From positions 1-50,966 of IMG/VR virus record IMGVR_UViG_3300046817_000857: a stretch of DNA of 50,966 bases; one strand, written 5' to 3'. This DNA comes from a virus. Shown here in pieces: positions 7,005-50,603 of the stretch. Each line of letters begins with the position of its first letter. The stretch's first letter is position 1. The translations under genes were made by a program, and so were the position numbers. Under the pieces are notes generated by a model, which had not been told where the DNA came from, did no database searches, and was given only the letters and a program-made list of their open reading frames with translations.

Positions 7005-7149
7005 GCCCCCCGATCAATTCACTCGCGATCCAACATGCTACTGCCAGCCAGCCAAGATGCCAGTAGGTGTTGGGGATCGGGCTCCATCGCGCAGCGATGC
7101 ACGCGAAGACGAAGGCGAAGACGAGGAGGATTGGTCCAACGTTCTGCAT
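6985..7149 (-). CDS. Small membrane protein, 54 aa
   Basis: The product begins MQNVGPILLVFAFVFACIAA and has a second hydrophobic stretch (YWHLGWLAVACWIASELIGG), so it is predicted to have two membrane helices. It starts one base after the DUF3309-like gene and is the last gene of the leftward convoy. Its final 20 bases are antisense to the end of the DUF3987 gene. A role in lysis timing is possible from its place after the holin, but is not shown by the sequence. Confidence 0.72.
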   Translation of the reverse strand: MQNVGPILLVFAFVFACIAARWSPIPNTYWHLGWLAVACWIASELIGGLTRGIH

Positions 7150-7150
7150 A

Positions 7151-7315
7151 TCACAGTCTCCCGGTTAAGAGTAAGATCACAAGCACGATTACCAGTATCC
7201 CCACGATTCCCACCCCTCCATGGCCGTAGCCATAGCCGTATCCCCAGGGGAGCACGTCACCGCCGAGGCCACCGAAGAGGATTAGAATTAGGATTATCAA
7301 TAAAATCAAACTCAT
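7151..7315 (-). CDS. DUF3309-like small membrane protein
   Basis: A 54-residue protein made of two hydrophobic segments (SLILLIILILILFGGLGG and GIVGILVIVLVILLLTGRL) joined by a Gly/Tyr-rich turn (WGYGYGYGHGG). This is the pattern of the DUF3309 family of small proteobacterial membrane proteins. The start ATG overlaps the preceding stop as ATGA. It sits in the lysis block and may modify holin behaviour or the envelope. That is inference; the family has no established function known to me. Confidence 0.75.
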   Translation of the reverse strand: MSLILLIILILILFGGLGGDVLPWGYGYGYGHGGVGIVGILVIVLVILLLTGRL

Positions 7316-7527
7316 GTTTTGCCCCTTTCTGCTTTTCCTTCGAGCACACCCTTTGCGCGCTCAGCTTCGCCAGTGACCTTCACCAGCGCGTCCTTGATAC
7401 TGTTGGTATTTGTAGATAGTTCTTTTATATCCTTCGCATGTTTGCGTGAGACAATCAAGTTATAGACCGCGATACAGGCAAAGATAAACTCTCCCATTCC
7501 GCGGAGGAAGTCGCCTATATCTCCCAT
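7312..7527 (-). CDS. Small protein with N-terminal membrane helix, 71 aa
   Basis: The chosen ATG at 7527 has AAAGGA upstream. The product starts MGDIGDFLRGMGEF, has a hydrophobic segment (IFACIAVYNLIV) and then a charged helical region ending in RAKGVLEGKAERGKT. The topology (one helix, cytoplasmic coiled tail) fits a small lysis accessory or spanin-like component, but no family is recognised. It is followed by an ATGA junction. Confidence 0.65.
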   Translation of the reverse strand: MGDIGDFLRGMGEFIFACIAVYNLIVSRKHAKDIKELSTNTNSIKDALVKVTGEAERAKGVLEGKAERGKT

Positions 7528-22139: not shown

Positions 22140-23327
22140 CTATGTTGGGGAAATAGTTGTTGTATTTGTACTTCCAATCGCACTCGCATTTACAGCTATA
22201 TGAATATTCGGTCCAACAACCCCTAGATCGGCGCCAGCACGCGTTGCTATCATATACTGATTGGCAGGGTTGCCATGGAGATATCCAACGTTTCCGATGA
22301 TGCTGAAAAGAGATGTGCTATCGATATCAGCAAAGATGTGCGCTCCCGCACTTCCGGTATTGTCGATGTTATCGCTAATACACATGTTCGTAATCCATCT
22401 GCCGTTGGCATCGTTTGGGACATAAATACCCCGTGATGTATTCGATGTTGTTTGCCCCTGGAATTCATTTCCATTGATTATGACGTTGCTTATAGAGCCA
22501 GTTGCTCCAGCCCGATTAAACTGAATCCCGGCAGCATTGTTGTTAGGAGCGCCGATACCTTCAATACTGTTCCCAATTATCATCACGAGGCTAGAAGTCG
22601 CCCCATTAGGGAGATTAAGAATAATCCCGCCTAACTGCGCAAACATCTTATTGTTGATAATCCTGGCTCCCCCTGACGTGTTCAAAATTATAGCTGTCCC
22701 ATTAGTTGGCGCAAACGTATTGCCATCAATACTATAATCGCCTGCATCAGTGTTGGTTGAATTTTGAACTATCAGTCCATTCCCTCCATTTGTTCCATAA
22801 GCGTCAAAAAGACATGCGCGTATGGTAAAATATACTGATCTATTAATTCCGATACATGTATCCGCATTACGGATATATAAATTATCAAACAAGCAATGTT
22901 GGGTATAACTTGCAGTAGCGCAACTCAAAGTAATTGCAGTTGTAGAAGCCGTAGCCGCTGACGGATAGGCAATCGCTAAATCCTTAAGTTCCACGCTAGC
23001 TAACGAAGCAAGAACGATATTGATACCATTGATCCCAACAGTCGGAATTATCACAGACGGCGGGGTGGTTTGGCCGCCTGCACCACATCCCATAAGCGTG
23101 ATCGGGCTGGTGACACTTAGAGCAGTGGTTATTTTGTACGTTCCAGTAGGGAAGAAAACGATTCCTCCCCCTGCTGATTGCGCGGCATTGATTGCGTTTT
23201 GAATTGGGGTGGTATCATCGGCAACGTTGTTGCCCACAGCGCCATAATTGTCTTTGACGTTGTACCATCCGCTTAACGAAGGTGCAGCAAAGATACCGTC
23301 CTGGCGAAGATAATTTGTCATTGTCAT
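22140..23327 (-). CDS. Tailspike with pectate-lyase-like beta-helix
   Basis: A 395-residue protein. Its early part (NVKDNYGAVGNNVADDTTPI, then AINAAQSAGGGIVFFPTGTY) is the classic start of the Pectate_lyase_3 right-handed beta-helix of phage tailspikes. Asn-rich rungs follow (IINNKMFAQLGGIILN, VIINGNEFQGQ). It probably binds or cleaves a host surface polysaccharide. The start overlaps the stop of the upstream gene by ATGA. Catalytic residues were not identified. Confidence 0.78.
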   Translation of the reverse strand: MTMTNYLRQDGIFAAPSLSGWYNVKDNYGAVGNNVADDTTPIQNAINAAQSAGGGIVFFPTGTYKITTALSVTSPITLMGCGAGGQTTPPSVIIPTVGINGINIVLASLASVELKDLAIAYPSAATASTTAITLSCATASYTQHCLFDNLYIRNADTCIGINRSVYFTIRACLFDAYGTNGGNGLIVQNSTNTDAGDYSIDGNTFAPTNGTAIILNTSGGARIINNKMFAQLGGIILNLPNGATSSLVMIIGNSIEGIGAPNNNAAGIQFNRAGATGSISNVIINGNEFQGQTTSNTSRGIYVPNDANGRWITNMCISDNIDNTGSAGAHIFADIDSTSLFSIIGNVGYLHGNPANQYMIATRAGADLGVVGPNIHIAVNASAIGSTNTTTISPT

Positions 23328-23875
23328 CCACCTACTACAATATAGCCAAAAGTTCGATCAACACGAGAGTTATTTGCATGGGTTACTACAAACTGCCCGG
23401 TTCCAGGGACGATTGAAGTTGTAGCCATGTCGTTTGCAGCATCCTGCGTTTGTGGAGAGAGGACCACAAAGCTTGATGTCGAGCAATTCGCTACTGTTAC
23501 AGTTGTAGTAGTTGCGTTTGCAGTAAGGGTAAATGTTCCTACGCTTCTAACGCCAGCACTCCATGTCATAGGCGTGCCTGCACCGGCAGAAGTCGGCACC
23601 TGTCCAGCAACGCTGGGCGTGACTGGCAGATAGAAATTAGAGTTGCCACTGACTGTTGATCCTGTCACAGCATACCATGTCGCTTGTCCTCCAGCAGCGC
23701 CAGTTACCGTTCCGCCCCCACCTCCACCACCGGAGAATGAAGTGAATGGCACCGCAGAAGGTGGAGCGGTGGTTAAACTTCCACAGACTGTATTTGGTGG
23801 AAACACACCATTGCATTGGGCCTGCGCCAAGCTGGGGGCAAGAAGCAGAGCGATGATAAGAAGGAGCTTTCTCAT
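23324..23875 (-). CDS. Signal-peptide-bearing fibre-like protein, 183 aa
   Basis: It starts with a clear Sec signal (MRKLLLIIALLLAPSLAQAQ), then a Pro/Ser region, a Gly run (GGGGGGG near 50) and a Thr/Val-rich beta C-terminus (TLTANATTTTVTVANCS). The composition resembles trimeric fibre or head-decoration proteins of phages. Virion proteins rarely need a signal peptide, yet this is one of several with one in this operon. It is ATGA-coupled on both sides. Confidence 0.68.
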   Translation of the reverse strand: MRKLLLIIALLLAPSLAQAQCNGVFPPNTVCGSLTTAPPSAVPFTSFSGGGGGGGTVTGAAGGQATWYAVTGSTVSGNSNFYLPVTPSVAGQVPTSAGAGTPMTWSAGVRSVGTFTLTANATTTTVTVANCSTSSFVVLSPQTQDAANDMATTSIVPGTGQFVVTHANNSRVDRTFGYIVVGG

Positions 23876-24300
23876 GATTGGTTTGTCCAGCCACGTAAGG
23901 TATTAGATGGATACAGAACGAAGCCGCCATAAGCGGAGGTGATTTGGATCGAGGGCAGGCCCATTATGGTTTCAGCCACAGAATTGGATTGGATTGTGAT
24001 TGGATTCGTACCACCATACCCACCAATGTCTACAATTCCGATCGAGTTCTTAGCATAGTTACCGGGGAGAACGCCTGCGGGCACAGTAGGGTCAATCGCA
24101 GAGGGTAAGATTATAATCACGTCCCCCGCGACGTTTACGTGGACGAGATTAGTACTTGGATCAAGGGTGTAGGTACCAGCGACGGTGATAGTAAAAAGGT
24201 TTCGCGCTGGGACTCGCACCCAACCTACACTAGGACCGAGATAGAAATCGACCCATTCGCGGGAAGTTCCGCCTTGATCAAGGTCCAGTTGGGAGGACAT
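23872..24300 (-). CDS. Hypothetical virion-associated protein, 142 aa
   Basis: I chose ATG 24300 (MSSQLDLDQGG), which has an AGGAG site and follows the previous stop (TAAGATG). The protein is beta-rich, with segments such as FTITVAGTYTLDPSTNLVHV and DVIIILPSAIDP, similar to head domains of phage receptor-binding or fibre proteins. No catalytic motif is seen. It lies immediately upstream of the secreted fibre-like gene. Confidence 0.62.
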   Translation of the reverse strand: MSSQLDLDQGGTSREWVDFYLGPSVGWVRVPARNLFTITVAGTYTLDPSTNLVHVNVAGDVIIILPSAIDPTVPAGVLPGNYAKNSIGIVDIGGYGGTNPITIQSNSVAETIMGLPSIQITSAYGGFVLYPSNTLRGWTNQS

Positions 24301-24301
24301 C

Positions 24302-24568
24302 TTATACTCCTGGAGGTATAGGATTAGGTGTAGTGGGTAAAATAGCTTCGGCAAGCGCAACTAGTGATGCAGTGAGCGCAGCTAATTCGGCTCCATAAGT
24401 TTTAGCCGAGAAGCGATGTGCATCACTAGTTGAAATACCATCTCCACACCAGTCTGTTGCTTGAGCAACAGGCCACCGATTGAATGGCGCTTGACTCATG
24501 GTGGGCGCTGCGAAGCGGCACTCGTTTGCCGTGTGATAGAAAATACAAGTGCCGCAAGTATCGGCCAT
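24302..24568 (-). CDS. Four-cysteine small protein, 88 aa
   Basis: The chosen start gives MADTCGTCIFYH. Cysteines lie in CGTC (5-8), in NECRF and in TDWCGDG, which could bind a metal ion or Fe-S cluster. The C-terminus is a helix (AELAALTASLVALAEAIL) followed by a Pro-rich tail. I recall such CxxC...C...WCG proteins as recurrent in phages but with no function known to me. The stop lies next to the following start. Confidence 0.62.
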   Translation of the reverse strand: MADTCGTCIFYHTANECRFAAPTMSQAPFNRWPVAQATDWCGDGISTSDAHRFSAKTYGAELAALTASLVALAEAILPTTPNPIPPGV

Positions 24569-24570
24569 AA

Positions 24571-24765
24571 TCAGTGCCTTCCTTGCGATCCGCAGCAACC
24601 GTGGTTGGATCCACCGATCCCGACGCTCTGGCTCATCTGTCCAGACGGGCCCTTCGGTGGGGAGTAGGGAAGTTCCTTGGCCTGGGTTACCCCACCCGAC
24701 GACGCCGTGGGGCGTTGGTTGCTGGGGGAATCAGGGCCGTATTCAGAGAGGATATCCCGAGCCAT
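24571..24765 (-). CDS. Small conserved phage protein, 64 aa
   Basis: A 64-residue Ser/Gly/Pro-rich protein (DILSEYGPDSPSNQ near the start, HGCCGSQGRH at the end). It is packed directly behind the previous stop (TAAATG). Low complexity and a paired Cys at the end suggest a disordered virion or assembly linker. No domain recognised. Confidence 0.55.
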   Translation of the reverse strand: MARDILSEYGPDSPSNQRPTASSGGVTQAKELPYSPPKGPSGQMSQSVGIGGSNHGCCGSQGRH

Positions 24766-24993
24766 TTATACCTCCTCGGTGCGCCGGAAGAACGGGGTGG
24801 GACTGGGTGTAGGAGTGGGCTTCTCGGCCTCAACTTTCTTTGCCACCGCATCGGCGTTCTCCTTGGCTGCGCCTTCTGCATGGACTTCGAGTTCACGCTG
24901 CGCAGCATCGGTCAGTGCCTTCAACCTCGGCCACTGGTGAGCCAGATCCGAAATCGAAAGCAACTTATGCACCGCATCCCAGTTAACACTCAT
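24766..24993 (-). CDS. Hypothetical protein, 75 aa
   Basis: It has a helical N-terminal half (VNWDAVHKLLSISDLAHQW) and an Ala/Glu/Lys-rich helix, then a Pro/Thr tail (PTPTPSPTPFF). The start is ATGA-coupled to the upstream gene. This is one of the small conserved genes between the secreted cluster and the tailspike; function unknown. Confidence 0.6.
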   Translation of the reverse strand: MSVNWDAVHKLLSISDLAHQWPRLKALTDAAQRELEVHAEGAAKENADAVAKKVEAEKPTPTPSPTPFFRRTEEV

Positions 24994-25226
24994 GTATGCC
25001 TCCTCTGGCTTCCGCCGTGGTGGATGGTTTTCCCCGAGTCCTTCGGGGCCTCAAAGCCTCGACCGGCGTCCATGGAGATCGAGGAGCCGTGGAGGATCTT
25101 TCCGGTGTCGGTTGCGTGGTTGCCGAGGGCCTGGCCAATTTGACTCACGCCCGCAGGGGAGATTGCATGGGCTCGAGGCTCACGCTTCCCAGCGCTTACT
25201 GAGTTGTGTCCTGATCCTTGTCGCAT
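24990..25226 (-). CDS. Hypothetical protein, 78 aa
   Basis: A His/Gly/Ser-rich protein with a central GVSQIGQALGNHATDTGK and a C-terminal HHGGSQRRHT. It overlaps the previous gene by 31 bases and the next by ATGA. No domain recognised; the tight overlaps support it being expressed. Confidence 0.58.
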   Translation of the reverse strand: MRQGSGHNSVSAGKREPRAHAISPAGVSQIGQALGNHATDTGKILHGSSISMDAGRGFEAPKDSGKTIHHGGSQRRHT

Positions 25227-25600
25227 TCACCATTCTCCTTTGGTTTGGTTAGCAGCCGTGTGTGATCCCAGCGATTCTCGGGATCGGATGCCATGTCGCG
25301 GCGGACTTTGTTGAACGTCCCGCCTTCGGCATTTTGCTCCGTCATCAGCTGGCGGAAGCGGTCGTCACAGCGTTCCATTTCCCGGAGTTGGTGGACTGGA
25401 ACAACGTGACCGAGTTCTTCGTACATGTACTTAATGTCATGAAGATCGTGCATGTAGTTCATAAACCGCCGGATCTTCTCCGGGACTTCCTTCTCCGCCT
25501 CGCTGATGTAGAAGATCACCTTCACCATCATCTCACGGATCATCTTCATCTCGCGGGCGATGCGTTCGAGGGTTACTTCCTGGGGAGTGTCATCTGCCAT
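25196..25600 (-). CDS. Hypothetical helical protein, 134 aa
   Basis: An almost fully helical, charged protein (LERIAREMKMIREMMVKVIF, then EVPEKIRRFMNYMHDLHDIK) with a Glu/Lys/Asp-rich end. A coiled-coil assembly role, for example a chaperone or virion linker, is plausible. Its start overlaps the last base of the upstream gene. Function unknown. Confidence 0.62.
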   Translation of the reverse strand: MADDTPQEVTLERIAREMKMIREMMVKVIFYISEAEKEVPEKIRRFMNYMHDLHDIKYMYEELGHVVPVHQLREMERCDDRFRQLMTEQNAEGGTFNKVRRDMASDPENRWDHTRLLTKPKENGECDKDQDTTQ

Positions 25601-26103
25601 CAGACCCTACGCGTTTCCGGCTTCTTCGCCTGGAGTTCTGCGTTCTGCATCATAAGTTCGGCGAGTTGGGCTTGGAGGGCATCGAACTCCGCACGGCTGA
25701 CACCGGATTCGGTGACAGTCACGGCTGGCACCGGCATCTTGGAGGTAAGCTCCGCCAGTTGCTTCTCCAGCGAGCCCAGAAGGCTGGCGCTGAAGCCCTG
25801 ACCGGGGAGGGATTCGATCGGATGTTTCCAAGACGCAGCGTGCTGGGCAGAGATGGCCTCAGCCTCAGCGTCCAACGGATCCATCGCTGGGGTTGGGGTG
25901 CCTTCGAAGATCGAGTCGGTCGCCAGCCCCTTACCCTCAAGGCAGACTAACGTCTCAGCCTCGAAGTAAAAGGGGACTTTGAATCGCTTCCGCCGCTCAC
26001 GGCCATTGACTCGATCGGTTTCCTTGTACTCCCACTCGACCTCGTCGAGATCGGGCGGGCGGCCGTAGAGGTAGTGTGGTTCGGTTAGTTTCCAACGAGC
26101 CAT
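25600..26103 (-). CDS. Hypothetical protein with C-terminal coiled coil, 167 aa
   Basis: The N-terminal part (WKLTEPHYLYGRPPDLDEVE) looks like a small beta domain. The C-terminus is a predicted coiled coil (RAEFDALQAQLAELMMQNAE). It lies in the block of small genes preceding the tailspike and overlaps the VPLPA-CTERM gene by 19 bases. I recall proteins with this arrangement in other phages, but cannot name a function. Confidence 0.62.
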   Translation of the reverse strand: MARWKLTEPHYLYGRPPDLDEVEWEYKETDRVNGRERRKRFKVPFYFEAETLVCLEGKGLATDSIFEGTPTPAMDPLDAEAEAISAQHAASWKHPIESLPGQGFSASLLGSLEKQLAELTSKMPVPAVTVTESGVSRAEFDALQAQLAELMMQNAELQAKKPETRRV

Positions 26104-26708
26104 TGTGTTCTCCTTAGAGTAAGCAGGGCTAAAAGGCCAGCGGCGAAGAGTGGGAGCGCTGGAGGCAACGGGGTGACTGTCGGAGGATCGACTGCTGTGC
26201 CGGTCAGATCGGTGAATTTATTCTCCCAGCTATAGTAGATATCGTAGTCGGTCCAATTATCCAGGAGGCCATTTCCAAGGGCGCCGCCCCCGACCGAGAA
26301 CTGCAATTCGTTGTATTCGAACAAGAAGAAAAAACTCCAACTCTGCCCGTCCTGGGAAAGATTCCAAATGTGTCCTCCGGGAGTAGTAGCACTATTAAAA
26401 TTGGTGATGAGCGCCTCGGGGCCGGGAATGGTATAGTTCGAAGTGTCGACGGTGAGATTGTAGGCCGTAAGCACGCCGTCCACGACGTCGACTGTGCCGG
26501 TCAGTGATTCGGTCACGCTGGAAACCGTGCTGGGGGCACAACCGCTGGGAAGGCTACTGCATTGCGGATTGGGGGAATAGAAGTAATTCTCAAGATTCGC
26601 ATCGTAGAACTTGGTATGAAACACCCCGTCGATGTTCCAGGTCGCGGCATTTGCCTGTTCAAGGGACAGAAACAAAAAACAAGCTATTACAAGATTTCGA
26701 TAGGTCAT
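26085..26708 (-). CDS. Secreted protein with VPLPA/PEP-CTERM-like sorting tail
   Basis: A 207-residue protein. An N-terminal Sec signal (MTYRNLVIACFLFLSLEQAN) is followed by a Thr/Ser/Asn-rich beta domain. It ends with TPLPPALPLFAAGLLALLTL followed by RR: a Pro-Leu-Pro motif, a membrane helix and a basic anchor. That tripartite tail is the exosortase recognition signal of VPLPA-CTERM proteins. The start at 26708 is fixed by an ATGA overlap with the beta-helix gene. It looks like a host-type surface protein carried as a phage gene. How it would be sorted after infection is inference. Confidence 0.78.
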   Translation of the reverse strand: MTYRNLVIACFLFLSLEQANAATWNIDGVFHTKFYDANLENYFYSPNPQCSSLPSGCAPSTVSSVTESLTGTVDVVDGVLTAYNLTVDTSNYTIPGPEALITNFNSATTPGGHIWNLSQDGQSWSFFFLFEYNELQFSVGGGALGNGLLDNWTDYDIYYSWENKFTDLTGTAVDPPTVTPLPPALPLFAAGLLALLTLRRTQWLVGN

Positions 26709-29700
26709 GGGGTCATTCCAAAGCCGTGCCGGATGTAGGGATTGATGCCGTTGTTCGCAGTCAGAGCCGGGTCCCAGTTCCACCTTGCGTTGTTGAGCGC
26801 GGCTGTCATGTAGCCGTCGATCGTTGCCGTCAGCCCGAGCGATGCAGCGTAGGTTTCCGCCGTTCTTTCAGGATTTGGATAAATCGTTGTTGGAGAGCAA
26901 GTGTACGAATACATCGTTGTACTCGAAGCCGTTTGATTTGGTGAAACCTGCCAACTCGTACCGGACCCTCCTGTGATCGTGGTGTTTGCGGTAACGCCAG
27001 GACCGGCGAGATTCTGTCCAATCGCGATGGGGCCGTTTATCAATCCGCTTGTTGCAAGATTATTGGGTGCAGTTATTACTCCGGTGAATTGCGCTCCAGT
27101 ACAGAACGTATTGGGAGTCCAGATATTGGCTGCACCACTGCCGGGGATACCACCAGGAGAGTCGTTTGTTCCACCGCTATCTCCTGGGGAGGGCGCAACA
27201 GCGCCATCAGGCCAGTTGAAAATGACATTATCGGTGAAGCTTAAGTTATGCACACCATTGGTGTCTATGGTCGCAACAGTGAGTTGCCAGCCAGTCAAGT
27301 TTGCCACTGCGTCAACTCTTATTTGAAGTCCACTTGCGCCCCCAGGAGAAGCCGTCAGCACGTCATTAACAACATAATTCGTGCCGGTACTCACTATCCT
27401 ATAAAAGGTCATTCCGCCCGGCGTGGTTTCGGCACCGGGGTCTGACCCAGTGAGAAGAGACCATTTTATGTGATCAGTATCGGTGCCTGCAATGGCGGTC
27501 CATGTCCCATTGTAAGCAGATGGGGTTGCGCCGGTGACTGTGAACTTCTCCCCTACATGAACACCGTAGGTGAAATCGTTGAACCCAGTCGTCCCAGTAG
27601 CAGTGGCTTCGTAGAACCCAGTGCCACCATTAAGCGCCCTCGTAATTCCGGTGAAACTCTCAAGAGCGAACGCAGCGCGTGCTCCTGCCCCAGCCATGCT
27701 CCCACTAAAGTTAGTCAGTGCAACGCCGTCCACAGGACCGAAGTTCACATTGGCAGGAACGGCTGGGCAATACGGAGACGCGAATGTAGTGCCGTAATAT
27801 CCTGGAGTCCCGCCAGTCCCAGCAGCAGTAAGCGTGGTTCCTTCTGTGTTGATACTGGGATAACCTGAAACCGGCGTCAGCACATCTCCAACCAGAGAAG
27901 TTCCAGCAAGTTGTTCTGCCAGAATCACATCAGTGATGGAACCACTTGCGACCGTTATAGCAAACGTCGATAATGTACTGCTGTGCCCTCCAGTGAAAGT
28001 TCCTGTGCCACCAATACAGCTATAAATTCCTGCTGTCCCTCCAGTCCCCGGATTTGACGCGATTGCAGTAGACACTTTTCCATTGAAGCCGTCAGCTGCG
28101 GCGTACCATGAAAAGGGGCTGACAGAACCATCCAAGTTAGCAATTAGATTATTTGTGGCCACCACATCGTTGGAATTGTAAAATTGTATACCCTGAGGAG
28201 GAGTTCCATTCGGAGTAGAATAAAATGACATGATGACATTGTTTGTAGCAGTCGTATTGCTGTCCAAGGTTGGATCGCCCTCAAAATGACCAACATCAAA
28301 GCCGTAAGTTCCGGCATATGTAAAATTATTATCGATGGTGCCGCCGCCACGAAATTGAAAATCTTCCGATCCACTCCTAGCACTGGTATTTCCACGCCTA
28401 CTGCCACGAACGGCATTCCATTGAAGATAGGCGTTTCGCGATGTTGTATTGCCAACCGTCAGACTTGCATCATTGTATCCACATAGGTCCAGTACGTTCT
28501 CATCAACCTGAAATCCGGTAGACATGGGTCCGCCGCCGGGTGTCGTCAGACTGCCCCCGACTGGATTTATAAGGTCAGCATTGATACCAAGAGCGCGGTT
28601 TCCGTAGCAGTGGTCCGTTTGAGAGCGTCGAATAGTGATATCGTAATTTTGTGCAAAGTCAGCAATGTTTATGCCATCGGAGTACCATTCAGCACGGACG
28701 TCCTCAACCAAAATACCAATCTTTTGTCCGGGGATTGAAACGGCTGTAGTAGGATCGACCACGTTGCCGGAACCGACATACTCACCACTTCCGGGGTCAC
28801 GCTGCGCTGAGTAGAAATGCAGACCCATTAAAGCAATATAATTTCCCGCCCCCTGAATTTGGATTCCTGCGCGTGCTGAATATAGATGATCGTTTCCTGT
28901 ACCCTGCATAGCTGCGTATGCTGCCGTTGCGCTTGGGCTTTTAATAATGGGGCGAGCCCGCGCCCCTGACGGGAGGTCTGGAGATGTCGCTGGAACGGCC
29001 TCGTCATAGGCCCCAACAACTAACGGCTCTAGTTCAGAGGCACCCCCGAGAGGAAAATTGTCCGATCCGCCCGCGATGCTCCATCCTCTCTCTAATGACT
29101 GCCCGGTAAAGGTGTCTCCCATTCGCAGCAGGAGCCAGTCGGGTTTTCCAGAGCGCAGCGCAAACCCGTTTCCAGCCCCTGCCGTGTGCCAGTTACCAAT
29201 CGTGCCAAGGCCAGTGCCGTCGCCATTGAAGACGGACGAACTGCCCGTGTTGTTAGGGTCATATAATCCTGGTCCTGTGCCACCAACGCCCTTGGTAAGC
29301 GTCTTGACTGGGCCATGGATGCCGGGAGCAGCAGATGTATACGCCATAGTCATAGGGCCGGTACAGGAACCAGAGCAAGTCAATGTCCCACTCGCATCAG
29401 GCAACCCGGTGCGGCTGGTCATCTGCACGAGCTTCTGGCTTGTCACGCTCACTGCGACGGTAAAGGCCTTGCCGTTAGGGCTGGTGTAAGTGTCACCCGC
29501 CACTGGGCTGGTGTTGGAGCTTAGGACGAACTGCTCTGTCGTATTATCGTCCACGAATGTCGGGGTCGAGCCGTCACGAAGATCACTCCCCATCGAGTCG
29601 GAGACATAGATAATGTTGGTGAACGCAGCGCTGGGCAACGTGCCGTCGCTGGGACCGATAGCCGTCCAGCCAGACGCAGTGGTGGAGCCATAAGTGCCGA

Positions 29701-30100
29701 GAGCTAGCCCTGGGCCACCAGCAATGGTCACATTAATCGTGAAGTTCCCAGGCGTGACCGAGGGGGTAGTGCCGGACACCGATATAGTGATCGGAATAGT
29801 TGGGTGGGTCGCGTTAACGAGGTTGGTGTTGTTGGCAACGGTGACCACGCCAGTTGTCGAATTGATCTGAAAGACGCTGAGAGCGTCGGTCAGAGACCAC
29901 GATGGGGTGCCAGTGAAAGAACCAACAATCGAGGCCGACCCTAAGAACGTGCCGTTGGCCGACATCTCCACAATGAAGGTGTTGGAAAGCGCAATGGTGT
30001 TCGGTGGCGGCGGGGCGGTTCCGCTGCCATGAATCCATGCCACCGCAGGAAGAAGGCAGACATAGAGGGCTACAATCGAGACGAGGAACAGCCGTTTCAT
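26705..30100 (-). CDS. Signal-bearing giant beta-helix protein, 1131 aa
   Basis: It starts MKRLFLVSIVALYVCLLPAV, a Sec signal. A cadherin-like segment follows (ALSNTFIVEMSANGTFLGSA to about residue 130). A long parallel beta-helix region then has Asn/Gly-rich rungs (NYIALMGLHFYSAQ, NYDITIRRSQTDH, NNVIMSFYSTPNG). The late part is Gly/Thr-rich repeats. A carbohydrate-binding or lyase role at the cell surface or on the virion is likely. It begins by TGATG overlap with the SGNH esterase stop. Confidence 0.7.
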   Translation of the reverse strand: MKRLFLVSIVALYVCLLPAVAWIHGSGTAPPPPNTIALSNTFIVEMSANGTFLGSASIVGSFTGTPSWSLTDALSVFQINSTTGVVTVANNTNLVNATHPTIPITISVSGTTPSVTPGNFTINVTIAGGPGLALGTYGSTTASGWTAIGPSDGTLPSAAFTNIIYVSDSMGSDLRDGSTPTFVDDNTTEQFVLSSNTSPVAGDTYTSPNGKAFTVAVSVTSQKLVQMTSRTGLPDASGTLTCSGSCTGPMTMAYTSAAPGIHGPVKTLTKGVGGTGPGLYDPNNTGSSSVFNGDGTGLGTIGNWHTAGAGNGFALRSGKPDWLLLRMGDTFTGQSLERGWSIAGGSDNFPLGGASELEPLVVGAYDEAVPATSPDLPSGARARPIIKSPSATAAYAAMQGTGNDHLYSARAGIQIQGAGNYIALMGLHFYSAQRDPGSGEYVGSGNVVDPTTAVSIPGQKIGILVEDVRAEWYSDGINIADFAQNYDITIRRSQTDHCYGNRALGINADLINPVGGSLTTPGGGPMSTGFQVDENVLDLCGYNDASLTVGNTTSRNAYLQWNAVRGSRRGNTSARSGSEDFQFRGGGTIDNNFTYAGTYGFDVGHFEGDPTLDSNTTATNNVIMSFYSTPNGTPPQGIQFYNSNDVVATNNLIANLDGSVSPFSWYAAADGFNGKVSTAIASNPGTGGTAGIYSCIGGTGTFTGGHSSTLSTFAITVASGSITDVILAEQLAGTSLVGDVLTPVSGYPSINTEGTTLTAAGTGGTPGYYGTTFASPYCPAVPANVNFGPVDGVALTNFSGSMAGAGARAAFALESFTGITRALNGGTGFYEATATGTTGFNDFTYGVHVGEKFTVTGATPSAYNGTWTAIAGTDTDHIKWSLLTGSDPGAETTPGGMTFYRIVSTGTNYVVNDVLTASPGGASGLQIRVDAVANLTGWQLTVATIDTNGVHNLSFTDNVIFNWPDGAVAPSPGDSGGTNDSPGGIPGSGAANIWTPNTFCTGAQFTGVITAPNNLATSGLINGPIAIGQNLAGPGVTANTTITGGSGTSWQVSPNQTASSTTMYSYTCSPTTIYPNPERTAETYAASLGLTATIDGYMTAALNNARWNWDPALTANNGINPYIRHGFGMTP

Positions 30101-31362
30101 CAGTGTAGCCTCGATGTGTCGATGATACCGCTGGATTGGATCAGACCGTAACCACCAGGAGAGGGATGTACGCCATCGGCCGTGGAATAGAAATCGGTCC
30201 CATCGACAATCCAAAGCGAATTGTTCGTGCCAGTTCCGAGAATGCTGGACGTATTGTAGGAGCCGCCAGGAGGGCCTACGGTGGCGGCCAGCAAGTCGGT
30301 GTTGAATCCTGCAACACTGGTTTGGAACGCGGTCGTCATCTGATCGACCGTTGTCGTCCAATTATTGGCCATATCGGTTGTCCAAGGAATTATCGTAGTT
30401 TGGATGATTGTCTTGCTGCCGATCATGTTGGCAGTCAGGGTCGTGTACATAGTGGCCAAACTGGCTTCCATCACTGCAAGCGACTCACCATCGGCAGCGA
30501 AGTTGTTGTGGCCGTAGCCACTGATGGCGCTGGTGCAGTATTGCAGCTCTTTATCACGCTGGGTATGCCCAGCGTTGAAACGCGAGGAGGTATCATTGCT
30601 GATGCCCATGTTAACGTAGCCAAGAGTGGGTCCGACGGACCTAGCGAGTATTCCAACGTCGCCGGAAGTCCCGGAATATACATCGTGCGCGCCATCCACG
30701 ATGCTGTCACCGAGCAGGCAGACCGATGCCTGGGCATTAGGAACCTTTCCGACTATTGTCAGGGGGAACGACATGAACCCAACTGTAAGCGGGACCGTGC
30801 CGCAGTCCACCGTATGGTCGGCTATGCCGCTGACCCCAACATCGATCAGGTCTCCGGTCGCCCAGTCTCCTACTTCGTCGGAATAAATGAGGCCAGAGGC
30901 GTTGGTGAGATACTCCCCAACGAAGAACTTCGTATTTGTTGGGATGGTTATATTTATGGGATCGGACAGGACATCGGTTCCCTTGGCCACGGTAACCGAG
31001 GACATTCCGGAGAACGTCAGCGGGTGGCACACTCCGACTGGGTACTCGACATCGCCCTTGATAACGCAATCGGAGCCAGGAGCCGACTCGACATCGGTGG
31101 AGATGAATACATACCAGCAGCCGAAGCGGACTTGAAGGCTAGTTACTGCGGTGCGGGTGTAGTGAAACGACCGAGCCATCATTTGGTTGTTTGAGGTGTC
31201 GTATGATGCCAGGAGTTTGCCCCGGGTGGCGACCAGGCCTGTGTAGTTGATGGCGCCAGCGTTGAAGATATTGAAGACCTGAGCATAGGCCATCCCGGAA
31301 ACGAGGACGATCAATGCGGCGATAGATATTAGACGACGGTACCGTACTCGCAGGTCGATCAT
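30100..31362 (-). CDS. Secreted SGNH/GDSL esterase
   Basis: A 420-residue protein with a signal peptide (LISIAALIVLVSGMAYAQ, cleavage near 28). SGNH blocks are visible: LLGDSIVDG with Ser220 (block I), NMGISND with Gly253 (block II), GYGHNN with Asn286/287 (block III) and DGVHP with Asp396 and His399 (block V). The N-terminal 200 residues form a beta domain. It probably deacetylates a surface polysaccharide or other acyl substrate. The start is fixed by a TGATG overlap at 31362. Neighbours are a concanavalin-like protein and a beta-helix protein. Confidence 0.82.
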   Translation of the reverse strand: MIDLRVRYRRLISIAALIVLVSGMAYAQVFNIFNAGAINYTGLVATRGKLLASYDTSNNQMMARSFHYTRTAVTSLQVRFGCWYVFISTDVESAPGSDCVIKGDVEYPVGVCHPLTFSGMSSVTVAKGTDVLSDPINITIPTNTKFFVGEYLTNASGLIYSDEVGDWATGDLIDVGVSGIADHTVDCGTVPLTVGFMSFPLTIVGKVPNAQASVCLLGDSIVDGAHDVYSGTSGDVGILARSVGPTLGYVNMGISNDTSSRFNAGHTQRDKELQYCTSAISGYGHNNFAADGESLAVMEASLATMYTTLTANMIGSKTIIQTTIIPWTTDMANNWTTTVDQMTTAFQTSVAGFNTDLLAATVGPPGGSYNTSSILGTGTNNSLWIVDGTDFYSTADGVHPSPGGYGLIQSSGIIDTSRLH

Positions 31363-32270
31363 CAGAAACCCCAGAAGGTATGTGCGTTCGCACTCAGCGT
31401 GTCCATAGTGCTTGAGCTTGGCCCGTCGTTCCAAGCACCTACTTCCACAACAGACCCATTCAAAAAGCTGCTTGCGCCCCCAAGCTGGAATTGCGTCGTG
31501 AGAGTGCCGTTGCCGCAGTCTACGATGTTGGGAGCGGTGCTGTTGATGTGGATGTCTGACGAGGTGCTGTTCCCGAGGACTGACAGAGAACCCCAATTCC
31601 CGTCTAGCCCGCTACCGGAAGCTAACTGATCGAAGCTACCGAAGACACAAAACACTTCATTGGCCGCACCACTCAAATTAACCCCCACCGAAGGACCGAG
31701 GTCCTGCCGCGCAGCTGTAAATGTGTGGTTGAAAACATAGTTAAAGACATATGGCTGAGAGGGACCTGTAAAACTTAACGGAGACTGATAGACGGCGCTT
31801 GTGCCATTGAAGGTGAGACATGGACTAGATGTCAGCCCCGAGCAGCTGACTGTTAGAGTAGCTCTGCTGGCTATCGTGTTCTGGACAAGATCGCAAGAAC
31901 CAGTACAGTTTCCACCCGCTGTCTGGTCGTAGATTTTCTTGACCGTGCAAACGACTATGGAGCAGTCTGAACCACCAATCGTAGTAATGACAAGAGCGCC
32001 GGTTGTCGCATCGCTAATCATGTCTGCGCATGCGACGTCGGCTACGTTGCAGACATTGATGGCTGCGTTGCCTCGCGTTGCTGAACTAAAGGCGCGCAAA
32101 CCACTCCATGCCAACGGGGTTGTAATCCCAAGATCACCGGGACCGATATAGCTGCCGCCACCGCCTCCACCGGGAGCGCCTTTCCCCGCACCTGTCATGG
32201 GGACTTGCGCCTGTGCAAGACAGAAGAGCCCAAGACAGAACAGGGTTATGGATACGATGCGATAGATCAT
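31362..32270 (-). CDS. Secreted concanavalin/GH54-like sugar-binding protein
   Basis: A 302-residue protein with a signal (MIYRIVSITLFCLGLFCLAQ), a Gly run and a domain with CSIVVCTVKKIYDQTAGGN and PCLTFNGTSAVY. This resembles the N-terminal part of GH54 arabinofuranosidase B and LamG-type folds (the VxxIYDQ motif). Paired Cys in CTGSCDL are consistent with disulphides in the periplasm or outside. No catalytic pair was assigned, so binding is safer than hydrolysis. Confidence 0.65.
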   Translation of the reverse strand: MIYRIVSITLFCLGLFCLAQAQVPMTGAGKGAPGGGGGGSYIGPGDLGITTPLAWSGLRAFSSATRGNAAINVCNVADVACADMISDATTGALVITTIGGSDCSIVVCTVKKIYDQTAGGNCTGSCDLVQNTIASRATLTVSCSGLTSSPCLTFNGTSAVYQSPLSFTGPSQPYVFNYVFNHTFTAARQDLGPSVGVNLSGAANEVFCVFGSFDQLASGSGLDGNWGSLSVLGNSTSSDIHINSTAPNIVDCGNGTLTTQFQLGGASSFLNGSVVEVGAWNDGPSSSTMDTLSANAHTFWGF

Positions 32271-33949
32271 GGCACTCTTTGAACGTATGTGATGTTGCCG
32301 GACAGATCGCCCGAACCAGACTGGAACAGGCAGAGATCGTGGGCTGCTGTGTTCGTCAGAGCTATAGTCCCAGCTCCACTGCCTTGGGTTTCACCACCGT
32401 TCGCAGCAAGGGAAAGTCCGTGTGTTGCGGTGGTGGCGCCGATGACTGCTTCGGCGGCGGTATCGCACTCGGTTGATGCCTTAGTGCCATCTGCGATCGA
32501 CCATATCGTGGCGGCCGAAGCGATCAGATGGAGGGAGCAGATGTAAATCTTCTGAGAGCTAGCAAGTGACACGAGCTTGATTGTCGTAGTTCCGGTCATG
32601 GATATTGGAACATTGGTCTTGGCCGCGAACATGCAGGGATCGGCGGCGGTCTGATTATTGGCGAGCACGACCGGGGAGCTAGCCGACATCGCGGCTTGGC
32701 CATTGCTGTTCGCGTTGGTCACCGACACGCCGTTGGTGGTACCAGGGGTGGTCTGGTCGATGCGGACGTTGCCAATGATATTCGTACCAGCGGGAATGGG
32801 CCCGGTGATGGCGGAATAGAGAGCATTGCCGGTTGTGTCAACATCGATGATCTGGGCGCGCTTGGTGGTGAGACGCGCAGTGCCTTCCTGTCCGGTGGTG
32901 AGCGTAGCAGAATCATTAAACACGCCACCACTGGGGACAAAGACAGACATCCCAGCAGTCCACGCTGCCGCATCCACCACGCTGACGCCGGAGCCAGAGC
33001 AATTGCCACAGGTGACCGCAAGCTCGTTGCTCGAGTTGACGTTGGCGCCACGGGCGTTGCCAGCAGCATCGCGGATGATTCCGTAGGCGCCCTTAGTGGT
33101 GCCAGAGGCGCGGTCCCAGGTGGTGCCGTTGAACAGCCAAGAGGCCACGGCGCCGGTGTTGTTGCCGTTAACGCCATCGGCCAGCGCTAAAGCGGACAGC
33201 CAGTTCTGCGTGTTGGTACCATCGCTCATGGCAACTCGGACGGGATTGCCGACAAGCGCGGCACCAGTGGCGCCAGGGCCAACGACCTGCGCGTTGAGAT
33301 TGGATGCCGTGGCCTGCGTGACGGCCGTGGTCGAGCCAGTGTCAATAACAGCGTGGAGATTGGAGCCAGTGGCTTGGCCTACGACCCAAGGGGAGGTGCC
33401 TTGTGTCACAGAACCACCTCCGCCGCCTCCTCCACCTCCACCAGAGCCAGTGGCGATGCCCGAGCCACCAACCATATTGACGGTCGTGGTCGAGGTCGAG
33501 GTGATACAGGAGAGTTGGGTATTGGCACCGACGGTAAAAGCGAACCAGCTATTGGGAGGAATAAGCTGGTCCGAGGTTGTTGCTGATGCGCCTAGTTTAC
33601 AGTAGGCGCCATTGGTCGCGCCGACATTCGAAGCAACGACAACGGTACCGGAAGGGAGGGTACCAGTAGCGCTGACGGTGCTAACGGAGATCGGCGTTCC
33701 GGTAGACTGAACGGTGGGAAAGCCGGAGATGGTTGCGGTGGCCGAGACGGTTGCGTTAACGCAAAGGGCACCAGTTTCATCCATCGTGCCGAAGCCCTGC
33801 GTGGCAGCGAGGGATTGTGCTGCGCAGGTAGGGACAACGACGAAGCCACCAACAGTTACGCCCGCAGGTGGGGGCATGGTGAAGTTCTGAGCCTGGGCTG
33901 GCGCTAGGCCCAGGAGCGCGGAGAATAGCGCCAGCCAAAGCTTTTGCAT
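32267..33949 (-). CDS. Signal-bearing fibre-like protein, 560 aa
   Basis: It begins MQKLWLALFSALLGLAPAQA. The body is Thr/Gly/Ala-rich beta repeats with a Gly run near 180 and repeated pieces of the type QATGSNLHAVIDTGST and QATASNLNAQVVG. This is typical of phage fibre and decoration proteins. Cys are sparse and paired (CGNCSG). It is ATGA-coupled to the concanavalin-like gene. Whether it is in the virion or exported is not decidable from sequence. Confidence 0.65.
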   Translation of the reverse strand: MQKLWLALFSALLGLAPAQAQNFTMPPPAGVTVGGFVVVPTCAAQSLAATQGFGTMDETGALCVNATVSATATISGFPTVQSTGTPISVSTVSATGTLPSGTVVVASNVGATNGAYCKLGASATTSDQLIPPNSWFAFTVGANTQLSCITSTSTTTVNMVGGSGIATGSGGGGGGGGGGSVTQGTSPWVVGQATGSNLHAVIDTGSTTAVTQATASNLNAQVVGPGATGAALVGNPVRVAMSDGTNTQNWLSALALADGVNGNNTGAVASWLFNGTTWDRASGTTKGAYGIIRDAAGNARGANVNSSNELAVTCGNCSGSGVSVVDAAAWTAGMSVFVPSGGVFNDSATLTTGQEGTARLTTKRAQIIDVDTTGNALYSAITGPIPAGTNIIGNVRIDQTTPGTTNGVSVTNANSNGQAAMSASSPVVLANNQTAADPCMFAAKTNVPISMTGTTTIKLVSLASSQKIYICSLHLIASAATIWSIADGTKASTECDTAAEAVIGATTATHGLSLAANGGETQGSGAGTIALTNTAAHDLCLFQSGSGDLSGNITYVQRVP

Positions 33950-33958
33950 TTGAGTCTC

Positions 33959-34411
33959 CTAGCTCGAGCTAACGCACATATAGGCGATGGTGTTGTTAGC
34001 GGTCGAGGTTTGGGTGATGGTTAGGGTGGTAGTGGCAGTGGCATAGGAGAGGGCCGCAAGGATTGCGGACTTCGGGGTCAGGAGACAGACCGGAGCGGTG
34101 ACGAAGGGCGTGCCAAAAGTGAGTACGCAAGAGGTGGTGGCGGAGGTGCCAACGGTGATGACACCAGCGAAGTCGGTGCCGACAACAGAAGGGGAGGTCG
34201 TACCGCAGTTGGCTGCCGCCACCGTCGGGGGTGGCCCACCTCGGGTTGTAGTGAGGAGGTGGTTAGGGAGGTAGATGTTATTAGAGGTGTCGTAGCCGAT
34301 AAGACCGGTTGGGTCCTGAGAGAGTTGGACTGCTTTGTTGATGTTCTGGGCATAGGTGAGGGCCAGACCAAGAGCCAGGATCACAGCCGAGGGGAGAAAG
34401 AGATTCTTCAT
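33959..34411 (-). CDS. Signal-bearing small protein, 150 aa
   Basis: The signal segment MKNLFLPSAVILALGLALTY is followed by a beta-rich domain with paired Cys (TTSCVLTFG, APVCLLTPK) and a C-terminal TTTLTITQTSTANNTIAYMC. The pattern resembles the distal domain of phage fibre proteins. ATGA coupling joins it to the next gene upstream. Function unknown. Confidence 0.62.
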   Translation of the reverse strand: MKNLFLPSAVILALGLALTYAQNINKAVQLSQDPTGLIGYDTSNNIYLPNHLLTTTRGGPPPTVAAANCGTTSPSVVGTDFAGVITVGTSATTSCVLTFGTPFVTAPVCLLTPKSAILAALSYATATTTLTITQTSTANNTIAYMCVSSS

Positions 34412-35052
34412 TGTGGTGCCTCCGTCCAGCGGAATGTTACGTTGAGAAGAGCAGTGGGTGAAGTGGCGTTGAGGTTCACGCAGATCTGCTGCGCTGCACC
34501 ACGTAGAGTTGGGGCTTCCGAGAAGGTCCGTTCGGCATAGTCGAACAGGACGTAGGGGGTTACCGCCGCACCAACGGTGGTTGCGACCAAGCCAAGGTTG
34601 GCACTGCTGATAATGCCGGGGGCAGAGTCAGGGATGGTAGGGTTGGCCGTGTAGGAGACGAGGGTTGCGGTGGAGGTTGGGTTGGTACTGTCCAAAGCGT
34701 AGGCTACAGGGAGGACAGCGTTGGTGCCGGGGGTGCCACCGGTATCGGCGGAGGCGTTCTTCTTGATCAGCACAGGGATGGAGATAGCTGTGCCGGAGCC
34801 GCTGACGCGGACCGATTGAACACGGATCACACGAGTAGCAGAGCCTGCGATACAGGCGATGTCAGTGGCAGAAGCAGCAGGGATGATACCTACGCCGGTA
34901 GCAGCGTAGGTAGCGACGGAGGGTTCCTGAACACAGGTGACGCCGACTTGTGGGACGTTGTTAACGCCACCAACGCCAACGCAGGAGACCTGAGCTTGGG
35001 CCGCCCCCGCAAACGCGAGGGAAGCAACAAGGGCAAGGAGAAGTTTCTTCAT
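34408..35052 (-). CDS. Signal-bearing protein, 214 aa
   Basis: I chose ATG 35052 (MKKLLLALVASLAFAGAAQA) because it gives a textbook Sec signal and follows the cement gene stop after one base (TAACATG). The mature part is a Val/Thr/Ala-rich beta protein with Cys pairs near its start (SCVGVGG, GVTCVQE). It resembles head-fibre proteins found after cement genes. It is the first of the signal-bearing series in the operon. Confidence 0.65.
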   Translation of the reverse strand: MKKLLLALVASLAFAGAAQAQVSCVGVGGVNNVPQVGVTCVQEPSVATYAATGVGIIPAASATDIACIAGSATRVIRVQSVRVSGSGTAISIPVLIKKNASADTGGTPGTNAVLPVAYALDSTNPTSTATLVSYTANPTIPDSAPGIISSANLGLVATTVGAAVTPYVLFDYAERTFSEAPTLRGAAQQICVNLNATSPTALLNVTFRWTEAPQ

Positions 35053-35601: not shown

Positions 35602-36645
35602 TTAAGTGAGCGCGGTTTCGTTGTTGAGGATGGCGTCACAGGTTCGAATCGGGATGCCGCGGAAGGTGGTGACGGGTTTGCCATCGAACTCCTCGATGCG
35701 GAGGAGGACGTTGGTTTTGTTCATAGCCTGAAGGTCGAGGTAGGTTCGGACGACACGGTTGCAATAGATGACACTGCGACCCATATTTGCGCGAACCTCG
35801 GGAGTGTCGGAGGTCTGGATGGTACCGGCTGAAACGGGCTGGGTCGGGAGTTTGTAGATGGCCCGGACCAGGAGATTGATAAGGTTCGCTGCGGACACGC
35901 CGGTGAGCTGGGTGATGTCGATGTTCGCGATACGGACGATATAGCGCCAGTCGCGGAGGACGTAACCGATCTCCCATTTAAAGTGATCGCGGTAGGCTTG
36001 ATAGGTGTTGCCCGAGGCATCGGTTACCGGCCACTCACCCATGTCACGGTGCTGGAGGCCGGTGATCTTGCCCTTGGGGAAGGTTGCGTGGGCGGTATCG
36101 TCGCCCCAGACCTTGAGCCAGATCGAGGTGTTGGTCGAGGCTGCGCCGCCGCCATCGAGGACGTTGTTGGCGGTTTGGGAACTGGCGGTGGTCTTAGTGG
36201 AGTATCGAGGGGACAGCCCGGTGAACCGCTCTGGGTTCACGAACTGGTTCCCGTAGATCATTGTCGCGGCGATCTGCTGGGACATACCTTCAAGGAAGGC
36301 CTTGACTTCGGAGAGCCGGAACTCGGCGGTGTTGCCGTTGAGATCCGCGATGTCCTTGTCAATAACCGAATACGTCTCAAGATTACCGCACGTATCCACA
36401 ATCTGAGCCGTGGTGCTTTTTGCATTCGGCACACCTTGATTGAGCAGGCGCCAAGTGGCCTGGGGCAGGCCAGTTCGGACGGTGGTCTTGTGCCCGGTTG
36501 GGAGGTTCCCCTCGACGACCATCATGTCCTCGAGGATTTCGTTCGTCTGGGAAAGGAGCTCGATGATACGGGCGACCTTGTATCCGTCATCAAGCCGCTT
36601 GGCCCAGTCTGCGTACGTCAGCGCGACGTTGCCGATGGTAGCCAT
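35602..36645 (-). CDS. Major capsid protein (BPP-1 type)
   Basis: A 347-residue protein with an N-terminal helix region (ADWAKRLDDGYKVARIIELL), then NEILEDMMVVEGNLPTGHKT and GLPQATWRLLNQG, which are characteristic of BPP-1-like HK97-fold capsid proteins. It is placed between scaffold and cement genes. The C-terminus (IRTCDAILNNETALT) lacks any further extension. High expression is expected from this position. Confidence 0.85.
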   Translation of the reverse strand: MATIGNVALTYADWAKRLDDGYKVARIIELLSQTNEILEDMMVVEGNLPTGHKTTVRTGLPQATWRLLNQGVPNAKSTTAQIVDTCGNLETYSVIDKDIADLNGNTAEFRLSEVKAFLEGMSQQIAATMIYGNQFVNPERFTGLSPRYSTKTTASSQTANNVLDGGGAASTNTSIWLKVWGDDTAHATFPKGKITGLQHRDMGEWPVTDASGNTYQAYRDHFKWEIGYVLRDWRYIVRIANIDITQLTGVSAANLINLLVRAIYKLPTQPVSAGTIQTSDTPEVRANMGRSVIYCNRVVRTYLDLQAMNKTNVLLRIEEFDGKPVTTFRGIPIRTCDAILNNETALT

Positions 36646-37987: not shown

Positions 37988-38154
37988 GCCGCGATCTCCC
38001 TGCGCATCCAGACTTGGGCATGCTCGCCAGTGACAAACATTTGAAACACTTCCCAGCCGTCTTGGCCGAAGCGGTTGAGGACAACGGTGGCTTCCTCGGC
38101 TGTGCTGTAGCCGAGGCCCTCGACTAGTTCATTTTTGTATTCAAACCGTTTCAT
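37984..38154 (-). CDS. DUF4177-like small protein, 56 aa
   Basis: A 56-residue product starting MKRFEYKNELVEGLG, followed by LNRFGQDGWEVFQMF and HAQVWMRRE. The FEYK...L..xGxDGWE layout matches DUF4177-type small domains. Both ends are ATGA overlaps (with the portal stop at 38151 and the secreted protein start at 37987), which confirms the frame. No function is established for the family. Confidence 0.72.
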   Translation of the reverse strand: MKRFEYKNELVEGLGYSTAEEATVVLNRFGQDGWEVFQMFVTGEHAQVWMRREIAA

Positions 38155-39968
38155 GCCGCACCGGTTAGTTTGGTGAGGAGGGAGCCTGAACCGGGCTGGG
38201 CTTCGGAGAGGGTTTTGGCTCCTGCGGCTAGCTTCTGTGCGGTGTCGGCTTGGGCGGCCTGTTGGGCTTGCTGGGCTTGCGCTGCGCGCTGTTGACGAAT
38301 CGCAGCCAACTGAGAAGGCGAGCGAATGAGTTTGGGATCGTTATTGTATAGATGCGATACCTTATCGAGTCCGTAGTCAATGTCAACGTTATCGACAGCT
38401 GCGGGGTCAATCCCGGCGAGCGCTCCCACCATGTTGAATAGACGTTCAATCCCAGAGGCTTGATTCGCATTTTGGGCGAGCTCGATCATGGAGGTGAATT
38501 CGATGGTAAGGTGCTTTCCTTGAGCCTCCGCAGGAGCGGGAGGCAAAATACCTGCCCTTGAGGCGATGCCGAACACTCGATCATGAATCTTAGCGAAGCC
38601 CTCGTGATTGAGACGTTCAAGGACTGGGCCCAGCATAAGCATTGCTTCCGCTCGTCGAGCGTCGATTTCGGTAGCGGTGACGTTGGAGCGGGTTTCGAAC
38701 TGGGAGATAACTTTGAAGAGATCATTGTAGAAGGTGCTCCCTATGCGGGCCCGGACTTCCCCAAGCTGCTCCCGCATTTCGTTGACCTTGGGATCAACGG
38801 TGTAGACCGGAGCGAAGCCAGTTTTGCCCTGAGCGATCATACCGGAGACGTAGGTCACGCCGCCAGGGAGGAGGGAAGCGGGCTGGTTTTTCAGTTGGAC
38901 ATCAGCGATCATCGGAGGGTTGACCATTTTGTCAATGCCCTGCGAGAGCCGCTTGGTTTCTAGTTGCAGCTGTTTGATATCGGGTAGAGCGTCCATACCA
39001 GGGGATCGGCCGTACGCATCATTAGATACGAGATCCCATCGTGTGACGATGGCGGGTGACTCATGAAAACCTCGCTTGCGGAGTAGACCCGGGCTGTATG
39101 ATGAGCCTCCTTGAGGAGATGCAGAGCCACCCCACTCCCAATAGCATTCTCTATAGGCGAAGGATTCTGGGACACCGTATGTCCTTCCATCGATGTTGGG
39201 CTCAACCATGTGGGCAATGACGAGCTCACGGGTTAGCGATGTGCCGCCTTGGGCCCAGAGGGAGGCGGTGGACGGGGAAAGGTTTTCGACTCCGAATTCT
39301 TCCGCGGCCTGGGAAACAGTGTAAGTAAACTCCCGAGCAAAGATGCAAGGGCGAAGTTGACCATCGTTATCAACATAATACTCGCCCAGGCAAGGATTAA
39401 CGCATCGGATGACATTGTCGAAGTCCTCGTAGATGAGCATGGAGGCGGTGCCGAAGACGACGAGGTCGAAATAGAAGATGGCGAGGGAGTCATAGAAGTT
39501 GGATTCAGCGAGGACCAGACCGATGATGCGTTCGACCTCGGCTAGCCACAAGGACACAGGCGAGGTTTGTGTAGAATCCAATCGCCCCAGCTTGTAGCGG
39601 AACCAGCGCTTGGTGGGATCGCTGCAACCCATCATCATCCCGGCAGCCAAGTTCCTTGCTGCCATCGAGCCAGTCGAGTCTAAGATGTGGGCGTTGATCG
39701 GAGAGCCTCGGGCCATTTGATTCGGGGTGATCAGCCATTTGTACCTTCGAGGGAGTTCGTAATCGGCGAGTTCACGCCAGTGCACCCACCAGGAGAAGCG
39801 GTTTACACGGAGGCCGATGAGGCGGGATTCGGAGGCCCGGCGGAAGGCGATTTCAGGATCAGAAGCTGGGCCGGGGGCAAGACGGTTGGTCGCGCGGCGC
39901 ACCTTTGCCCGTGCCTCGGGGGAGAGGTTGGGGTAGGTGGAGGTGGCTGCAGCGGAGCCGTATTGCAC
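38151..39968 (-). CDS. Portal protein
   Basis: A 605-residue head-tail connector of the podovirus type. Its early region (FSWWVHWRELADYELPRRYK, then STGSMAARNLAAGMMMGCSD) is typical. LGEVRARIGSTFYNDLFKVI and VTATEIDARRAEAMLMLGPV match the wing/stem helices of this family. The end is a Gln/Ala-rich tail (QQRAAQAQQAQQAAQADTAQ). The start is a GTG sharing its G with the preceding stop (TAGTG). It forms the portal ring through which DNA is packaged. Confidence 0.88.
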   Translation of the reverse strand: MQYGSAAATSTYPNLSPEARAKVRRATNRLAPGPASDPEIAFRRASESRLIGLRVNRFSWWVHWRELADYELPRRYKWLITPNQMARGSPINAHILDSTGSMAARNLAAGMMMGCSDPTKRWFRYKLGRLDSTQTSPVSLWLAEVERIIGLVLAESNFYDSLAIFYFDLVVFGTASMLIYEDFDNVIRCVNPCLGEYYVDNDGQLRPCIFAREFTYTVSQAAEEFGVENLSPSTASLWAQGGTSLTRELVIAHMVEPNIDGRTYGVPESFAYRECYWEWGGSASPQGGSSYSPGLLRKRGFHESPAIVTRWDLVSNDAYGRSPGMDALPDIKQLQLETKRLSQGIDKMVNPPMIADVQLKNQPASLLPGGVTYVSGMIAQGKTGFAPVYTVDPKVNEMREQLGEVRARIGSTFYNDLFKVISQFETRSNVTATEIDARRAEAMLMLGPVLERLNHEGFAKIHDRVFGIASRAGILPPAPAEAQGKHLTIEFTSMIELAQNANQASGIERLFNMVGALAGIDPAAVDNVDIDYGLDKVSHLYNNDPKLIRSPSQLAAIRQQRAAQAQQAQQAAQADTAQKLAAGAKTLSEAQPGSGSLLTKLTGAA

Positions 39969-50436: not shown

Positions 50437-50603
50437 TGCCCCGAGCTAGCATCACTTATCGTGCAGCACGTCGTAACCTTCACAAAAAGGAACACCTTAT
50501 ATGGACCCCGCAGTCACACTACCAGCACCAGAAAGCGAAAGCGCCCCCTCCCCATTCCTTCCAGGCACCAACATCCAATTCGCCCTCGATTCGACGAGTA
50601 TAG
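50436..50603 (+). CDS. Possible 55-residue basic ORF, second allele
   Basis: Allele of 202-369 (MPRASITYRAARRNLHKKEH start). The frame stays open, but changes in the part overlapping the nuclease are mostly amino-acid altering. Confidence 0.38.
   Translation: MPRASITYRAARRNLHKKEHLIWTPQSHYQHQKAKAPPPHSFQAPTSNSPSIRRV

Follow-up and report, generated by a model that had tools for sequence, protein, structure and literature searches.

A phage-encoded cell-surface protein candidate built like a VPLPA-type exosortase substrate

The whole stretch of DNA analysed here (50,966 bases, hereafter the window) belongs to a tailed phage whose capsid (PF20911), portal (PF12236), and terminase genes are of podovirus type. 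The gene for the major capsid protein lies at 35602..36645 on the minus strand, and its product is 82% identical to those of three related records (L175, L177, and L178). The portal, or head-to-tail connector, is encoded at 38151..39968, also on the minus strand. The exact end repeat of a complete genome was absent. Positions 1-732 and 50235-50966 overlap inexactly: the 732-base stretches share 92% identity, and the pattern resembles the joining of two strain variants at the termini of a genome that is circular or permuted.

Between the capsid and tail genes sits a block of exported genes. From 35052 to 26085 seven adjacent minus-strand genes overlap or nearly touch, each of them encoding a Sec signal, and several of these signals end in AQAQ or AYAQ; elsewhere in the window Sec signals are rare. 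The products are 214 aa (34408..35052), 150 aa (33959..34411), 560 aa (32267..33949), 302 aa (31362..32270), and 420 aa long (30100..31362, with an SGNH/GDSL-like hydrolase domain matching PF13472 just under the cut-off), followed by a repetitive protein of 1131 aa (26705..30100) and, last in the run, the product of the gene studied here (P0001, 26085..26708), which we call the CTERM gene. The 302-aa protein is 75% identical to its counterpart in a relative (G001) and 35-42% identical to those of five other records. One more exported gene, the eighth in this region, lies at 23324..23875 on the minus strand and encodes 183 aa with a Sec signal. Exported genes thus span 23324-35052 within the late block of this tailed phage, and a similar, partly different Sec-signalled set was seen at the same place in L175, L176, L178, and G001. 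The pectate-lyase-like tail spike at 22140-23327 has no signal peptide (PF12708, with several PHROG tail-spike matches) and, unlike its exported neighbours, is likely a virion depolymerase.

The CTERM open reading frame runs on the minus strand from an ATG at 26708 to a TAA ending at 26085 and encodes 207 aa. The original prediction of an N-terminal Sec signal, of a C-terminal tail followed by RR, and of ATGA coupling to the upstream gene was borne out. Residues 1-21 (MTYRNLVIACFLFLSLEQANA, 26646..26708), followed by ATW, form a good Sec signal with an AxA-type site and a 9-residue core of mean Kyte-Doolittle value 3.3. In the tail (...VDPPTVTPLPPALPLFAAGLLALLTLRRTQWLVGN) the motif TPLPPALPLFA (residues 179-189, 26142..26174) starts 29 residues from the end and precedes the remainder of a hydrophobic helix (score 2.4) with its basic end, AGLLALLTLRR (26109..26141). 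The next gene (MARWKL..., 25600..26103, minus strand) shares 19 bases with the CTERM 3′ end and uses the arginine codons, AGG AGA, as its Shine-Dalgarno; the last CTERM codons overlap both that Shine-Dalgarno and the start codon (AAGGAGAACACAATGG). At the other end the CTERM ATG overlaps the TGA of the 1131-aa gene (ATGA, 26708-26705). That upstream gene had been called a beta-helix, an identity that no model confirmed. The fold of the ectodomain between signal and tail was not recognised: AlphaFold2 on two sequences gave a pLDDT of 39 and no fold prediction, and a PDB profile search returned matches at chance level only. A search for homologues in cultured phages, proposed with the original prediction, found none for the CTERM protein, its large exported neighbour, or the gene at 31362-32270.

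The tail had been assigned to the VPLPA/PEP-CTERM class. None of the curated CTERM models (including TIGR03370, TIGR02595, and PF07589) scored the CTERM protein above its cut-off, and TIGR03370 and PF07589 did not report it. Matches below cut-off were found for XDP1 (15.9 bits vs. 125), MYXO-CTERM (15.8 bits vs. 20), and GC_trans_RRR (14.8 bits vs. 15.85). As a positive control, the tail examined from another phage (G007, which has three) exceeded the TIGR03370 cut-off of 25.35 bits, with 28.3 bits for the full-length protein and 33.0 for the tail alone. We also used an independent HMM, built solely from the VP[VL]PAA[AV]WLF tails of other phages. Among 1189 six-frame C-termini from the window and its relatives, the CTERM open reading frame was the sole window C-terminus matched (E 0.007; next 0.81). 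Over 773 C-termini from 13 phage records the value was 0.0045, compared to 0.59 for the next non-CTERM sequence, and the G001 relative likewise stood above all noise. A second HMM, made from PLPAALPLF tails and therefore partly circular, gave 4e-8 to 7e-8. A position-blind DNA pattern for [TVAI]PLP[PA]ALPLF found 28 sites in IMG/VR, 25 of which were truly C-terminal and accompanied by a hydrophobic stretch plus two or more basic residues. Bare tails in tblastn against phages and plasmids returned nothing, an uninformative result because the BLAST low-complexity filter probably masks such tails. The independent HMM, the position-blind pattern, and the conservation of the motif at the protein level indicate that the tail is more than a chance resemblance. 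Membership in a curated family failed, and a VPLPA-like tail that appears to be under selection in a phage, supported by the independent HMM and an evolutionary test, is what stands of the original assignment.

The evolutionary test compares one pair of sequences, the window CTERM gene and that of G001, the sole diverged relative found. The two proteins are 44-50% identical, both carry the Sec signal, and the motif TPLPPALPLFA is the same in each. In a block of 23 codons (DLTGTAVDPPTVTPLPPALPLFA) there were 11 synonymous differences and 1 non-synonymous difference. Outside this block identity was 28% for the remaining helix and end and 25% for the central part of the ectodomain, and the G001 tail (FGLGVLLWRGTRAK) keeps the same plan with different basic residues. 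In this pair, a fixed motif ahead of a drifting helix fits the prediction for a recognised sorting signal rather than a plain anchor, since an anchor needs no fixed pre-helix sequence.

The leading alternative is nevertheless a C-terminally anchored inner-membrane protein, with a Sec signal and a stop-transfer helix that is never cut. Such a protein would act at the periplasmic face, for instance in superinfection exclusion by blocking genome entry. Many known phage exclusion proteins are small and reside in the membrane or periplasm, and the failure of the curated models and a basic end consisting merely of RR fit this explanation as well. The pattern of conservation is the reverse of an anchor's need, however, and unrelated phage proteins carry PLPxALPLF equally far from their C-termini. 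We regard an uncut anchor as a serious explanation that is unlikely to be the correct one.

VPLPA-type tails recur in several unrelated phage lineages. The podovirus contig G007 (L055) has portal and capsid proteins of the same families as the window (32-39% identity) and encodes three VPLPA-CTERM paralogues (6009-6665, 6861-7511, and 14856-15509), all running in the opposite direction to its late genes. G008 has replication genes in common with the window (48-63% identity for most of them) and carries an unrelated VPLPA protein. On six other contigs the gene for a CTERM-tailed protein and that for an HK97-type large terminase are about 2 kb or less apart. The ectodomains of the tail-bearing proteins in other phage contigs are unrelated to that of the CTERM protein. 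This recurrence in unrelated phages suggests that phages may borrow the host sorting pathway.

Several further tail-bearing sequences were observed. One G007 paralogue lies right beside the small terminase gene, and the three together show a classic moron placement. PLPAALPLF-tailed proteins adjoin the terminase genes of HK97-type contigs in L008, L014, L012, L019, L028, and G005, and the L014-type protein is weakly like NCBIfam FxDxF. A PEP-type tail protein is encoded in a virus record of jumbo size (L140, IMG/VR 3300031088_000008, 416,714 bases). Several PEP-CTERM tails were found in IMG/VR 2751185896_000001 (L113, L127, and L150) and 2698537050_000003 (L153), one of these records having an isolate-like id; they could be phage genes or host flank. 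PEPxTWAM tails gave 95 stretches in IMG/VR, and 3 of the 33 such records searched have the TerL_ATPase family. Because many of these stretches could come from provirus flanks, they were not counted as evidence of phage carriage. Single-linkage clustering of the full set of tail proteins put 92 into one cluster and was discarded, since common tails and signals join proteins that are otherwise unrelated.

The relatives of the window differ in this region. L175, L177, and L178 have neither the large exported gene nor the CTERM gene, other Sec-signalled genes stand at the corresponding place, and the MARWKL gene directly follows the SGNH-side gene. L181 retains the large exported gene (63%), and a fibre-like gene replaces the CTERM gene at the same ATGA junction. 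Given this absence and this exchange, the CTERM gene is accessory and moron-like, and lies at a swap point. G001 has five genes of the exported block in the same order as the window (46, 75, 61, 61, and 44%), and its genes beyond these five do not match those of the window. The exported set therefore seems to move as a unit. The original prediction had described a host-like signal inside a virion operon; the position between capsid and tail genes agrees with it, and the description is only partly right because the gene is accessory and is the last of seven with Sec signals.

This variability would also be expected of a host VPLPA-CTERM gene acquired at a recombination-prone spot between exported genes, with no function for the phage and a tail that is a relic. 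The absence of the gene from relatives with 82% identical capsids and its replacement in L181 fit such an origin, as does the low synonymous divergence at the CTERM 5′ end (dS 0.07), which suggests a recombination junction. A relic, however, would hardly be kept in two otherwise different phages with its motif under apparent purifying selection. The neighbouring exported genes moved along in the same order, and a protein-pattern search found no cellular relatives of the CTERM protein. We consider such a passenger origin improbable. A tail or fibre accessory protein of the particle, with the hydrophobic C-terminus as a tip or trimer element and an incidental "signal", would suit a late-strand gene between capsid and tail genes and near tail-spike-like genes, and it is very improbable given a tail that matches sorting tails and seven adjacent genes with clear Sec signals, whose products would leave the cytoplasm where particles are assembled.

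On balance, and with guarded confidence, we favour the reading that the CTERM protein is a phage-made cell-surface protein, built like a VPLPA-type exosortase substrate, that is cut by a host exosortase and alters the surface or matrix of the infected cell. No exosortase is encoded in the window phage or in any of the 13 phage records, so a host enzyme would be needed. Exosortase systems belong to Gram-negative bacteria (PMC1569441). The listed relatives of the window capsid and portal infect Gram-negative bacteria. The closest cultured DNA polymerase is that of Caulobacter phage Kuura (37%), and the same search found no exosortase in a Caulobacter vibrioides control genome. The CTERM tail has Pro at the position where the usual motif has Ala, and TPLPPALPLFA was absent from 84,980 species genomes; for these reasons host enzymes may not use the TPLPP variant. 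The shortness of the basic end, whose RR codons also serve as a ribosome-binding site, is a further ground for doubt.

In the PEP-CTERM/EpsH model a substrate is exported by Sec, halts at its C-terminal helix, is cleaved at the motif, and is released to the outer membrane or matrix (PMC1569441). By analogy, the CTERM protein, which closes the run of exported products, would be produced during late infection and threaded through Sec. Its C-terminal helix would lodge in the inner membrane and stop further transfer, leaving the basic end on the cytoplasmic side. A host exosortase would then cut at or near TPLPP at the outer surface of the inner membrane, the phage supplying only the substrate, and the freed protein would end up in the outer membrane or in the exopolysaccharide matrix. 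The likely effect would be a changed surface or matrix of the infected cell, with receptors masked against superinfecting or progeny phages, for example. Alternatively it might block superinfection or keep progeny from sticking to debris. Superinfection block and matrix adhesion are guesses at the function.

A broader proposal is that phages of exopolysaccharide-making Gram-negatives commonly hijack the host exosortase. A transferable Sec-signalled set (in this phage seven neighbouring genes, one of them for an SGNH-type hydrolase) and a CTERM-tagged protein would together rebuild the infected-cell surface or matrix in late infection. We put this forward tentatively and think it doubtful in so general a form.

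The exosortase tail is a known address label in bacteria. Should phages of several unrelated lineages use it as well, exosortases would become machinery that phages exploit, and infection may remodel the biofilm matrix from inside the cell. The poorly understood exosortase reaction would also gain simple phage-borne test substrates, and the tails would draw attention to phage genes of a kind so far overlooked in collections of environmental viruses. The literature searched, with most subscription journals lying outside it, yielded no account of exosortase substrates encoded by phages, and the founding PEP-CTERM paper (PMC1569441) does not mention phages.

Compared with known systems, the CTERM protein is built like a VPLPA-CTERM substrate, with failed membership in the curated models and an exosortase dependence that is predicted. 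Like the VPLPA-CTERM and PEP-CTERM substrates (TIGR03370, TIGR02595; Haft et al. 2006, PMC1569441), it combines a Sec signal and an unrelated ectodomain with a membrane-edge motif, a hydrophobic helix, and a basic end, the tail lying within about 30 residues of the C-terminus. Unlike them, it is encoded by a phage, has TPLPP with Pro for Ala, ends in only RR as its basic residues, and scores below the curated cut-offs, and its gene stands in a run of several coupled genes, not in a single-gene operon. Substrates of MYXO-CTERM and myxosortase (TIGR03901, TIGR03382; PMC11980579) have the same three-part plan and gave weak model matches below threshold, but their motif has an invariant Cys before the helix, whereas residues 160-207 of the CTERM protein contain none. 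With phage morons and superinfection-exclusion surface proteins the CTERM gene shares an accessory position in a late block, absence from close relatives, and an exported product; no such protein with an exosortase-type tail is described in the literature searched. The other phage VPLPA proteins (G007, G008, and the L008/L014 group) resemble it in carrying a Sec signal and a PLPAALPLF tail among phage genes, and differ in having unrelated ectodomains on different backbones and at different positions.
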